The translations under genes were made by a program, and so were the position numbers. Of a stretch of DNA of 64,000 bases, positions 18,235 to 22,902 are shown piece by piece. Within the stretch, counting starts at the first letter, position 1. Each line of letters opens with the position of its first letter. The notes beneath the pieces were generated by a model. The model was not told the DNA's origin. It saw only the letters and a program-made list of their open reading frames with translations, and did no database searches. Where the stretch lies: positions 1 through 64,000 of the forward strand of contig CAMOIE010000009.1 of the NCBI GenBank assembly GCA_946615905.1, written 5' to 3'. This DNA is from an uncultured Treponema sp. Lineage in GTDB: Bacteria; Spirochaetota; Spirochaetia; Treponematales; Treponemataceae.

Positions 18235-18312
18235 TATAAATGAATCTTGAAAATCTTGTTATCGTGGGTTAAGATTTAGGCATCACGGTGAAAGATTAAC
18301 GCGAAAATTTAT

Positions 18313-18400: not shown

Positions 18401-18461
18401 GGTTTTGGAAGAGGAATTTATGTTGATGAATTGTATATATAGCAATAGAACGGAGAATAAT

Positions 18462-18767
18462 ATGGATAAAAAGCTCTGTTCGGTAGCAAGTAAAGTACGG
18501 GGGGGGGTATATATACTTTTCCTGATTCTTTTTCTCTCCTCATGTCAGGGAATTTTCGAGCGCCTTGAGGAAGGCGGGAGCGAAGAGGCTTCAGAATCTT
18601 TTGCCGTTGACTCACGAGAACCTGGAATCTACCTTTCGCTCACCGACGCGAGCGGGAACAAACTTTTTTCAGAAAATTCCGCATCTTCGAGCCGAGCGGC
18701 ATGCCCCGTAATTTCAGTGACGGGAGACTCAGCTTGGAGCTTCTGGGGTTCTCTCTCAAGGAAATAG
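18462..18767 (+). CDS. N-terminal part of beta-helix lipoprotein, with G9 tract
   Basis: ATG 18462 has GGAG upstream and opens a lipoprotein signal (MDKKLCSVASKVRGGVYILF then LFLSSC, Cys about residue 28). Codons R-G-G of the signal peptide are CGG GGG GGG within nine Gs at 18499-18507. The frame continues for about 70 residues and stops at 18767. The large frame that starts at 18701 lies in another phase and continues the protein without its own signal. I read the two as one gene split by a frameshift near 18700-18745. The track ORF start at 18342 is less likely. Confidence 0.65.
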   Translation: MDKKLCSVASKVRGGVYILFLILFLSSCQGIFERLEEGGSEEASESFAVDSREPGIYLSLTDASGNKLFSENSASSSRAACPVISVTGDSAWSFWGSLSRK

Positions 18768-21700
18768 AGTATAAAAGCGCGACGGGAGAGTTCTTCTTCC
18801 CGCTCACGAAGGCGGAGGTCCTGCAATCAGGGAGCAAGGAGCTTCGCATCTACGGCTACCCGACTTCTCAGGACAGCCCGGCCGCAGAAAAGGCCGCGAT
18901 CAGGGCGACAAAGACAATCTCCTTCGACGGCGAAACACTTGCCTACACAACAAGCGCCTCTTTTTCGGCGAACCCAGAGGCAACGGGGAAAGGCTCCGTT
19001 GACCTAAAGATAAAAGTTCCCGCAAAATGCACATCGGTAACATATTCAATCACTGACAAAGACGGAGCTGATGTTTCATCAAAAATAACGACAGAACTTT
19101 CTAGCGGAACTCTTACAATCAGTTCTAGCGGCGACGGGCTTGATTCCGGAACATACAGCATTTGGATAAGTTTTTACGACAACGCCACGGACAAGAATCT
19201 TCTCGCGATTTACACGGAGCAAATCGACGTGTGGCCTGGCTGCGAGACGAATCGCTGGTACGGAGGCTCCGGAACAGGCGAGGAGTCACTTGACCTGCGG
19301 AGCCTCGGCTACACGACTTTTTTTGTGCTTGGTGAAAGCCCGGCCATGTACGGCTCCCAGATTACAGGGTACAAGGCGGCTAGCGACGACAATACGGGCG
19401 GCATTTCCAACCCGCTTGCGAAAGTTTCCACGGCGGTAAAACGCATTGTGGCTGCCAACGACGGAAGCACGGAATACACGATTTATGTTGACGGAACGGT
19501 GGAGGACAAAATCAAGGTGGATTCGAGCGTCAGCTTGAAGCTCAAGATACAATCGCTTTCGGGAAACGCGGCGATCAAGGCAAAATCGACGGACTCGACA
19601 GGCACGGTGCTTGAGTGGAAGTCAAGCGGAACGCTCACATTGAAGAACATAACAATTGACGGCAATAAAAAGCTGCGGTGTCTCTACGTTGAGAGCGGCA
19701 CCGTGTCCGGAGAAGGCGTTGCGATTACGAACGGCTTTGCAAGCGATTACGGCGGAGGGGTAAAAGTCATGGGTAGCCGCGGAAACATTACCCTGGACTC
19801 CTCCTCAAGCGTGACGAAGTGCGAGGTCTCCGCTACAGGAAACCCATACGGCGGCGGCATTTATGGTAACGCGGCAACTATCACCCTGAACGGAACAACG
19901 CTGAGCGGAAACAAAGGAAAAATTGGCGCCGGCATTTGCTTTGCTTACGGCGAGCTTAACGTGAATGACTGTTCAATCAGCGGAAACGAATCAACTAAAG
20001 GCGGCGGAATATTCGTTATGGGAGGAAGCGCCAAAATCTCAGGCGGAACTATTTCGTCAAACACTGCAAAAGAAGATGGCGGCGGTGTCTATGTTCAAGC
20101 TGATAGTCTTACAATAAAAGACGATGCCATAATCAGTGGAAACACTGCTACAAATAGAGGCGGCGGAATCTATGTCAAGGCGTCAGGAATTGTCAATGTT
20201 GAAGGCGGAAAGATTCTGGGCAACACTGCCACAAGCGGAGGCGGAGCCGTCTACATTGACTCGACCGGCGGAACTCTCAACATAAAAGGCTCTCCCGACT
20301 TCGGAAGCGGAGAGGGCGTGAACGAAATCTGCCTTGCGAGCGGAAGGTATGTCTCCGTCTCGGGCAAACTTACCTGCGAGGACGGAAGCATCCCCATCAC
20401 ATCATCAAACTACAAGTCTGGAACACAACTGATTCAAGCGGCGGACGGCTACAGCCTTACCGAGTCTGACTGCCAAAAATTCCGCATCGTAACGAACGCG
20501 GGAGAGAACACACCATACACAATCGTTCAGGACACAAGCGACTCAGACAAAGGAATTTCAACACTCAAACTATACGTCTCTTCTGCAACTGCGACACCCG
20601 CCGGAAGCGCGACTGGAACTGGAACAAAGGCAAATCCATTCCTCTACATTGACCATGCTATTAACGCGATTACAAGCACTTATTCCGCAGAAAGTGAAGT
20701 TACGATTATAGTCTCTGGCGAAGTTAGCTCAAAGGCAGCCGGCACGAACACGTCCACAGTATACCTTGGCGGAATTTCAAAGACGCTGAACTTCCAAGGG
20801 GCAACAGGCTCGGCCACGGACAAGATAAAGGCACTTACAAACTGCCGCGTCATGTGGGTGGACTCGGGAACCGTGAACCTTTCCAACATCACGCTGACAG
20901 GCGGGCGCGATGTTCAAAACGGAGCCGGAATCTACATGGCTGGCGGGACCGTGAACCTGAAGAGCGGCGCGGTGATTTCGGACAACGAAGCGTCAAACAA
21001 CGGCGGCGGAGTCTGCGTCAACGAGACTGGGGCAAAGCTTACGATGGAGGGCGGATCTTCGATAGAAAAGAACAGTGCCACCAATGGCGGCGGCGTGCTG
21101 TTGAACACGGGAAGCGGAAACAAGAGTCTGATTATGGAAGGCGGAACGATAAGCGGAAACACCTGCGGCGGCAACGGAAGCGGTGTCTGGGTGGGCAACA
21201 GCAATGCGACATTCTCCATGTCGAACTCCGCAAAGATAGTCTCGGGCAACGACGTGTACCTCAACTCAGGCGCAACTATAAAAATCGACGGTGCCCTGAG
21301 CAATTCTACCGTTGCGACAATCACGCCAAGCTCCTACACTCCAGCCACAACGGTCCTTTCCGGAAGCTACGTTTCGTCAAACTACTCAAAGTTCACGCTT
21401 GCCAATTCGGACTGGAATATAACGAGTGAGGGAAAACTGACAAAATCCCTCTCCTCCATCAGCGTAGATGAAATCCAGGCAAAGGATAGTTTCATGATAG
21501 CTGGCCCTATTGCAAACTATACGACGCTTCTGGGAAAGACGATTTTCTTCAAGACCTCCAATGACTCTTATGGCGCAATGCAGTTCACAGATGTATCAAA
21601 CAATTATAGCATATCATTTAAGTATAAGATAGGAAGCGGCGACGTGAAGACTAAAATCAACTTCAGAATAGGCTGGGGGTTCGACTTGGACGGTGCCACA

Positions 21701-21796
21701 ACGGACGACTACAACAAGGACTTCGGTCTGGACTTAGCTGGTTCTGCATATAACTTCGTGGCATACAACGGCGCGAAGTTCTGTATTGCGGAGTAA
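18701..21796 (+). CDS. Right-handed beta-helix surface protein (main body)
   Basis: This open frame of 1031 residues is the body of a large exported protein. An early Ig-like region (TYSITDKDGADVSSKITTEL) is followed by two beta-helix segments (about residues 230-520 and 620-850). These have repeated GGGIYV/GGGVYV and SGNTA motifs, like polymorphic-membrane-protein type passengers. A C-terminal globular domain ends YNGAKFCIAE. It lacks a signal peptide, which is found in the overlapping upstream frame. Role: probably an adhesin or substrate-binding surface protein. The ATG at 18701 lacks a Shine-Dalgarno, supporting a frameshifted single gene rather than an independent start. Confidence 0.75.
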   Translation: MPRNFSDGRLSLELLGFSLKEIEYKSATGEFFFPLTKAEVLQSGSKELRIYGYPTSQDSPAAEKAAIRATKTISFDGETLAYTTSASFSANPEATGKGSVDLKIKVPAKCTSVTYSITDKDGADVSSKITTELSSGTLTISSSGDGLDSGTYSIWISFYDNATDKNLLAIYTEQIDVWPGCETNRWYGGSGTGEESLDLRSLGYTTFFVLGESPAMYGSQITGYKAASDDNTGGISNPLAKVSTAVKRIVAANDGSTEYTIYVDGTVEDKIKVDSSVSLKLKIQSLSGNAAIKAKSTDSTGTVLEWKSSGTLTLKNITIDGNKKLRCLYVESGTVSGEGVAITNGFASDYGGGVKVMGSRGNITLDSSSSVTKCEVSATGNPYGGGIYGNAATITLNGTTLSGNKGKIGAGICFAYGELNVNDCSISGNESTKGGGIFVMGGSAKISGGTISSNTAKEDGGGVYVQADSLTIKDDAIISGNTATNRGGGIYVKASGIVNVEGGKILGNTATSGGGAVYIDSTGGTLNIKGSPDFGSGEGVNEICLASGRYVSVSGKLTCEDGSIPITSSNYKSGTQLIQAADGYSLTESDCQKFRIVTNAGENTPYTIVQDTSDSDKGISTLKLYVSSATATPAGSATGTGTKANPFLYIDHAINAITSTYSAESEVTIIVSGEVSSKAAGTNTSTVYLGGISKTLNFQGATGSATDKIKALTNCRVMWVDSGTVNLSNITLTGGRDVQNGAGIYMAGGTVNLKSGAVISDNEASNNGGGVCVNETGAKLTMEGGSSIEKNSATNGGGVLLNTGSGNKSLIMEGGTISGNTCGGNGSGVWVGNSNATFSMSNSAKIVSGNDVYLNSGATIKIDGALSNSTVATITPSSYTPATTVLSGSYVSSNYSKFTLANSDWNITSEGKLTKSLSSISVDEIQAKDSFMIAGPIANYTTLLGKTIFFKTSNDSYGAMQFTDVSNNYSISFKYKIGSGDVKTKINFRIGWGFDLDGATTDDYNKDFGLDLAGSAYNFVAYNGAKFCIAE

Positions 21797-21826
21797 AGAG
21801 GGGGGACACTTAGCACGTCATGTTGA

Positions 21827-21925
21827 GGCAAAGCCGAATCGGGCAAAGTCACCGCCCACGACGAGGAAGAAATGCAGAAATCGTTCAATCAAAATGTCGA
21901 AAACGTGTTAAAAAGCATAAACTGA
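21827..21925 (+). pseudogene. 3' end fragment of an unrelated gene
   Basis: Thirty-two codons ending TGA at 21923-21925 read GKAESGKVTAHDEEEMQKSF and NQNVENVLKSIN, a clear charged helical protein tail with no start. It abuts a bidirectional terminator shared with a convergent ppdK fragment. Together they look like a piece of another locus (two convergent gene ends). The parent protein is not identified. Confidence 0.5.
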
Positions 21926-21952
21926 TCTTTACGGCGCTCACAAACGGCGCGC

Positions 21953-21987
21953 AAAAAAATCGCCCGAAAACTCGGGCGATTTTTTTT
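21953..21987. terminator. Bidirectional intrinsic terminator
   Basis: AATCGCCCGA, an AAAC loop and TCGGGCGATT, with A-run before and T-run after. It serves the convergent fragments on both sides. Confidence 0.85.
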
Positions 21988-22007
21988 CTCAAAGGAATCT
22001 CACTCGA

Positions 22008-22262
22008 TTACTTTCCGCTCTTTATGACAGCCTGCGCTCCGGCCAGTCTGGCGAGAGGAACGCGGAACGGAGAGCAAGAGACGTAGTTCAAGCCGATTTT
22101 GTAGCAGAGCGCGATTGAGGCAGGGTCTCCTCCGTGCTCTCCGCAGATTCCCAAGTGAAGCTCCGGCTTCGCGCCTCTTCCCTTCTCTTCGGCGATCTCC
22201 ATGAGCGCGCCAGGACCGTCCGGGTCGAGAGTCGCGAACGGGTCGTCCTCAATCAGCTCTAT
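22008..22262 (-). pseudogene. ppdK: C-terminal fragment of pyruvate, phosphate dikinase
   Basis: The minus-strand frame encodes the last ~84 residues of PPDK: ELIEDDPFATLDPDGPGALM, then LHLGICGEHGGDPASI and GLNYVSCSPFRVPLARLAGA, with the catalytic Cys of YVSCSPFRVP. A stop codon (22263-22265) and a switch to unrelated sequence mark a sharp 5' break. The remaining ~800 residues are absent. Coding conservation is perfect up to the break, so the event is recent, or an assembly join. Beyond the break, plus-strand beta-helix coding sequence begins. Confidence 0.85.
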
Positions 22263-22845
22263 CTACCTGCCGTCAAGCAATAAAATCACCGTAGCGGGTG
22301 CGCTCACTTATTCAGGACAAATAGACCTCTCTTACGGCGGAAACATTTCAACCGACTCTTACTATACTTTCACATCAGGCTTTGCGAGCTACAACAGCGT
22401 TTCTGTCTCAAGCAAATTCAGCTACACAGGAAGAAGGATTTTGGACTGGCAAAACCACGAGGGAATCTTGGTGAACTCAAGCCAAGTTCCGACGCTGAAG
22501 GCAAGATACAAAACAGACCTAACAGGAAGCGAGTGGTCGTCATGGTCAACAGACACAATCGACTTGTACACCGTAGAAGTTCTAAACGCACAAATAGAAC
22601 TTTCCGCATGGGTGGGCGACTTGGATGTTACGAGCGTTGCAAAATGGAGCGAAATAGTAATCAGTAACGCCTCCAGTACGGTAAACAGTGGATTCAGCCT
22701 CAGCGGAAAGACCATAACGATTAATGGTAGTTCCCTCAACCCGACTAATAGTGGCGCCGCCAGAGAGTACACCGTGAGAGCATCTCTGGGCTTTGACTCG
22801 GCAAGCACGGAAAAGACAGTTCGGTTTAGTATAATCAAACCGTAA
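22258..22845 (+). pseudogene. C-terminal part of a second exported beta-rich protein
   Basis: The track ORF begins at 22201, but its first ~19 residues are antisense to the ppdK fragment. Genuine coding seems to start around 22258 with SISSIYLPSSNKITVAGALT, which resembles the terminal beta-helix turn of the neighbouring lipoprotein. Ig/TIG-like segments follow (ILVNSSQVPTLKARYKTDLT, VTSVAKWSEIVISN) and it ends VRFSIIKP. It has no signal or start, so it is the 3' remnant of a second surface protein truncated at the same junction as ppdK. Confidence 0.6.
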
Positions 22846-22902
22846 ATTCTGAAGTGCCTTGAGCCGTAGGGGGGGAGGAAAAGGCTTGCAAAAAGCTTGG
22901 CT

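Follow-up and report, generated by a model that had tools for sequence, protein, structure and literature searches.

Translational phase variation by poly-G tracts is already known in bacteria. In the contingency genes of Campylobacter jejuni and in hmbR/hpuA of Neisseria meningitidis, a pure G run lies in the coding sequence, gain or loss of one G shifts the frame, and ON and OFF lengths coexist. In Treponema pallidum, length heterogeneity has been proven for poly-G tracts of tp0126, tprE/G/J and tprL (PMC7864442, PMC10013896). Tract lengths were assayed by fragment analysis in PMC7864442, and among Nichols clones 24 of the 46 poly-G/C tracts with at least 8 units occurred in more than one length (PMC10013896). 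The best-studied T. pallidum tracts sit in promoters and alter transcription.

The locus analyzed here is a G9 homopolymer in a contig of an uncultured Treponema sp.; the whole stretch of DNA analyzed, 64,000 nucleotides, is called the window. It resembles the T. pallidum tracts in family, in lengths of 8-12 and in the link with surface proteins, but it would affect the translation of a leader rather than transcription. Unlike the Campylobacter and Neisseria switches, the candidate switch here is placed in a lipoprotein signal peptide, past the start codon and ahead of the hydrophobic core, and possesses recurrent TAC...TA flanks. A leader switch shared across many lipoproteins of the genus was not found in the open-access literature searched.

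Among the family relatives, a genome of 1,139,633 bp (G114) was recognized as T. pallidum because it contains the primer pairs of PMC7864442. With these primers placed in it, six of the seven assayed G9 tracts were found to vary in length, as did all the longer located ones, while neither of the two G8 tracts clearly did. The G9 at tp0257 was without clear variation. By analogy, a tract of nine would stand at the short end of the length range that varies in T. pallidum, which counts against a switch in the window.

Organization of the G9 tract and the lipoprotein leader

The nine G residues reported in the preliminary description were found to be exact and in frame with the ATG at 18462 (Table 1). 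No longer G run occurs on either strand of the window, which contains one G9, one G8 and two G7 runs. The tract begins 37 nt beyond the first base of the start codon and is an uninterrupted repeat of the kind expected of such a switch (at least 8-9 units 3' of the start codon). The frame after this ATG reads MDKKLCSVASKVRGGVYILFLILFLSSCQGIF, with a charged start, a hydrophobic core and the lipobox LSSC. The signal peptide yielded by the G9 register is MDKKLCSVASKVRGGVYILFLILFLSSC, and the tract is situated between the ribosome-binding site and ATG on one side and the hydrophobic core on the other. The KK..K..R n-region, the core YILFLILF and the lipobox, which fits the pattern [LVI][ASTVI][GAS]C, are those of a bacterial lipoprotein; the lipobox and Cys28 (18543-18545) confirm the earlier placement of the tract inside a lipoprotein-type signal peptide.

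Table 1. Features of the tract locus in the window
Feature	Position	Strand	Remarks
Shine-Dalgarno-like GGAG	18452..18455	+	6 nt 5' of ATG 18462; from sequence
ORF from ATG through tract	18462..18767	+	101 codons, TAG stop
Signal peptide MDKKLCSVASKVRGGVYILFLILFLSS	18462..18542	+	n-region KK..K..R, hydrophobic core, lipobox LSSC; aligned to paralogue leader
TAC, 5' flank of tract	18496..18498	+	Common to many lipoprotein-leader tracts of the genus
G9 homopolymer	18499..18507	+	Codes R-G-G(-V); candidate slippage switch
TA immediately 3' of tract	18508..18509	+	Typical flank of runs of at least nine Gs in the genus
Body of beta-helix-like lipoprotein	18611..21796	+	Other frame; homologous to paralogue from about 18775
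Second frame break, separate from tract	18745..18775	+	Paralogue homology passes to another frame

The two alternative frames past the tract stop after 5 and 19 codons, so that a change of one unit truncates the product. Past the tract, no in-frame ATG, GTG or TTG occurs before 18717, a position far beyond the lipobox. Translation starting 3' of the tract, named earlier as one of two findings that would speak against a switch, was thereby ruled out, there being no such codon between tract and lipobox. As only one register has the leader, the other frames stop early and no later start is available, an exported lipoprotein can be obtained from one register only.

The G8 run of the window, at 216-223 on the minus strand, lies in AT-rich, apparently non-coding DNA and is followed by CA, not by TA.

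Downstream frame break and the beta-helix-like body

The preliminary description placed the tract in a large beta-helix lipoprotein. The signal peptide is present, but the ORF of the tract has 101 codons and the body, listed as an ORF from ATG 18701, is not in the frame of the tract. The same genome has, on contig C21, a paralogue with an unbroken frame of 1144 open codons. In the alignment it matches the frame of the tract up to WSFWGSL (around 18755) and the other frame beyond; because its homology changes frame, a second break independent of the G tract was placed at about 18745-18775. The C-terminal 150 aa of the body are closely similar to the paralogue. The body is open for more than 1000 codons and shows no further stops, which suggests that the break arose recently or is an artefact of assembly. 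No standard slippery motif of programmed frameshifting was seen by eye at the break.

Because of this separate break downstream, the full protein would not be made in this assembly even at G9; with the ON frame closed at 18767, the ON length gives no full-length product. The early stops of the alternative frames agree with the earlier claim that one G more or less abolishes the product, but the whole beta-helix protein is already split by the second break. The tract would work like a translational switch, and this copy of the gene is a putative functional member only.

Just downstream, a short ORF at 22201-22845 of the window resembles a fragment of the paralogue by eye. The region 21820-22900 is fragmented, with a paralogue-like ORF and the apparent end of an unrelated gene, which are signs of reshuffling or of assembly trouble.

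Quite possibly, this paralogue has lost its function or is on the way to losing it, and its tract is a relic. The frame break would then be real and leader slippage would switch nothing now, which is compatible with a former switch. The break seen against the intact C21 paralogue favors this, and the fragment-like ORF together with a second C21 paralogue of only 196 codons suggests a family under reshuffling. However, with the body otherwise open any lesion would have to be of recent date, most ORFs in the rest of the window are long and uninterrupted, and an assembly error at a single site may have produced the break.

The beta-helix fold of the body is putative. The body gave a weak match to PF02415, below the cut-off. 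The structure model (mean pLDDT 51.6, many short strands) is too weak to prove the fold, and the structural matches were weak as well (best E 0.0085), tailspike and AlgE6 chains among them. Along with the PF02415 match, GGGIxV/GGxIxxNxA-type repeats in the body resemble the Chlamydia Pmp-like beta-helix surface proteins; unlike these, the gene has a lipoprotein leader and gave no match to an autotransporter domain.

Recurrence of the tract in lipoprotein leaders of the genus

A DNA search of 200 genus genomes and a profile search in 146 of the 200 gave no orthologue of the locus, and the N-terminus of the tract's ORF had no match among the genome contigs searched. The anatomy itself is recurrent. 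TAC-Gn-TA was present in 51 of 196 genus genomes in a genus-wide search. A strict scan of 102 distinct TAC-Gn-TA sites, requiring a ribosome site, a start, at least 100 open codons, a hydrophobic core and a lipobox, gave 15 lipoprotein leaders, 9 ON and 6 OFF; most other sites lay outside leaders. As independent examples, lipoprotein genes of G037 and other species have runs of G8-G12 after the start and before the lipobox. In at least 15 lipoprotein genes of other species the layout is ATG, TAC-Gn-TA, hydrophobic core and lipobox, and the tract length sets ON or OFF. By its anatomy, the window tract is a member of this recurrent genus class, in which lipoprotein genes have TAC-Gn-TA past the start codon but ahead of the hydrophobic core.

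Leader tracts of genus lipoproteins were found at lengths of G8, G9, G10 and G12, the length deciding whether the frame is ON or OFF, close homologues included; these states are taken from assemblies, and some single homopolymer lengths may carry sequencing error. The leader of L312 (genome G215, G9, ON), MKKRFVCLKNLVRGGVLFSLLLILSC, has its ATG 37 nt 5' of the run and codes V-R-G-G-V, both as in the window. L312, L383 and L384 all begin with MKKRFVxxKNxVRGGV. L383 (G9, ON) and L384 (G10, OFF, with a product of 30 aa) are 4 kb apart in one genome, G267, and L312 and L384 share 84.7% protein identity and 273 of 300 bases past the tract. L322 (G9, ON) and L386 (G8, OFF) form a second homologous pair. 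A third is the gene pair at L110, G9 ON and G10 OFF, with 40% identity. L276, a distant homologue of the lipoprotein family of the window, has G8 at the matching leader position. Within the length read, the bodies that follow OFF leaders have open frames. Viewed across these sequences, the anatomy, the frames, the recurrence of the class and the ON and OFF versions of close homologues in relatives are all evident.

Two other pairs of sites were noted. L111 and L119, at contig ends in G037, are the same over 135 bases 5' of the run and over about 35 bases 3' of it and differ as G10 and G11; they are repeat copies or assembly variants. L138 and L141, both in G048, are alike at 94 of 100 bases past the run and have G15 and G10.

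Distribution and flanking sequence of long G runs

A first-order Markov model expects about 0.3 runs of at least nine Gs per window and about 15 per genome; 14 are present, so that G9 alone is unremarkable by that measure. This agreement is what can be said for a G9 that arose by chance and switches nothing, a reading that is nevertheless quite unlikely. The real decay of run length in 315 kb of the genome (215 G5, 33 G6 and 5 G7) extrapolates to about one such run per genome against the 14 observed. TA directly follows 12 of these 14 runs, compared with 4% of G2-G6 runs (p about 1e-15). Matching leader positions in many lipoprotein genes, with alternatives from G8 to G12, also argue against chance.

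TA follows only 2 of the 14 G8 runs of the genome. In seven relatives, which were chosen for holding such tracts but whose runs were read regardless of flank, 69 of 97 runs of at least nine Gs precede TA, and where the run is followed by T the next base is A in 69 of 70 cases. In most of the genus members that have it, and in several other spirochaete groups, G9TA was commoner than the reversed control sequence. The TA flank marks the G9 of the window as one of a non-random class.

Of the causes considered for the TA rule, promoter boxes cover some sites, codon choice covers none in any evident way, and insertion and mutability models failed their tests. In T. pallidum, unlike in this genus, tracts precede TA, TG and other dinucleotides. 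The variable ones are followed by TG, TA, AG, CA or AC; TA is thus dispensable for instability, and the idea that it is needed was rejected. If TA were the start of a -10 box, the promoter subset would be accounted for but the coding tracts would not. The alignment of the leader to the paralogue and 14 of 26 tracts in G037 suggested a TA-C-Gn-TA pattern. Insertion with duplication of TA was not adopted, as the pattern was unseen in G043, G048 and most other tracts of the own genome. In SDR and epimerase genes the run seems, by eye, to stand in for natural Gly-Gly codons. A general bacterial TA rule was supported neither by a survey of G14 runs in other taxa, in which high-GC contigs and contig ends were overrepresented, nor by a Helicobacter genome, whose runs mostly precede C.

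The long G runs of the genus might arise or spread by a sequence-specific process which leaves TA 3' and, in lipoprotein leaders, often TAC 5'. One cassette, TAC-Gn-TA, would then have been placed in many unrelated lipoprotein leaders as a ready-made switch, often coding V-R-G-G-V. This idea is rather doubtful.

Proposed switch mechanism

The G9 tract probably serves as a phase-variation switch at the level of translation. The run would gain or lose Gs through slipped-strand mispairing. At G9, a ribosome starting at ATG 18462 would read V-R-G-G-V into the hydrophobic core and the lipobox (ON), and in the other registers it would meet an early stop (OFF). The switch would thus toggle export of the lipoprotein. 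The slippage switch proposed in the preliminary description is strongly supported by the comparison with G8, G9, G10 and G12 leaders, ON and OFF, in the genus, but it does not extend to switching of the whole protein in this assembly. From such comparison, phase variation appears well supported for the tract class; for the window gene, and for slippage of its tract in living cells, we infer it. MutS1 is present and apparently intact in the genome, so slippage is not boosted by its loss, a point against the switch.

That the window tract acts on transcription by altering the length of a promoter spacer, as at porA in Neisseria and tp0126 in T. pallidum, is very unlikely: other tracts do occur in promoter-like contexts (contig C4 of the own genome, and similar loci in G043 and T. 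pallidum), but a -35-like hexamer is absent at the proper distance 5' of the tract, a promoter-like match lies at 18247-18275 instead, and a good ribosome site and ATG stand upstream of the tract.

As a translational switch, the tract class would add a large treponeme genus, known chiefly through assemblies, to T. pallidum and the epsilonproteobacteria as bearers of poly-G phase variation. It would represent a whole group of lipoproteins in which a single G run in the leader probably turns export on and off, a possible bet-hedging system, and the switch states could be read straight from genome or metagenome reads. The occurrence of TA after long G runs offers a cheap way of listing candidate switches.

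Other candidate tracts in the genome

On contig C4 (172484; L047:4485), the arrangement TTGACA-ATTAAAT-G12-TAAAAT resembles a sigma-70 promoter, with 7 nt between TTGACA and the G12. It lies upstream of an alcohol-dehydrogenase-like gene and is a candidate spacer switch comparable to porA or tp0126. Contig C25 (L039, L040) possesses five G9-G10 runs followed by TA, which are situated in, at the ends of, or between surface-glycan genes. Genes named by eye as nonulosonate-like (PseC/PseF/PseI-like) and O-antigen genes are found there, suggesting a candidate phase-variable glycan locus.
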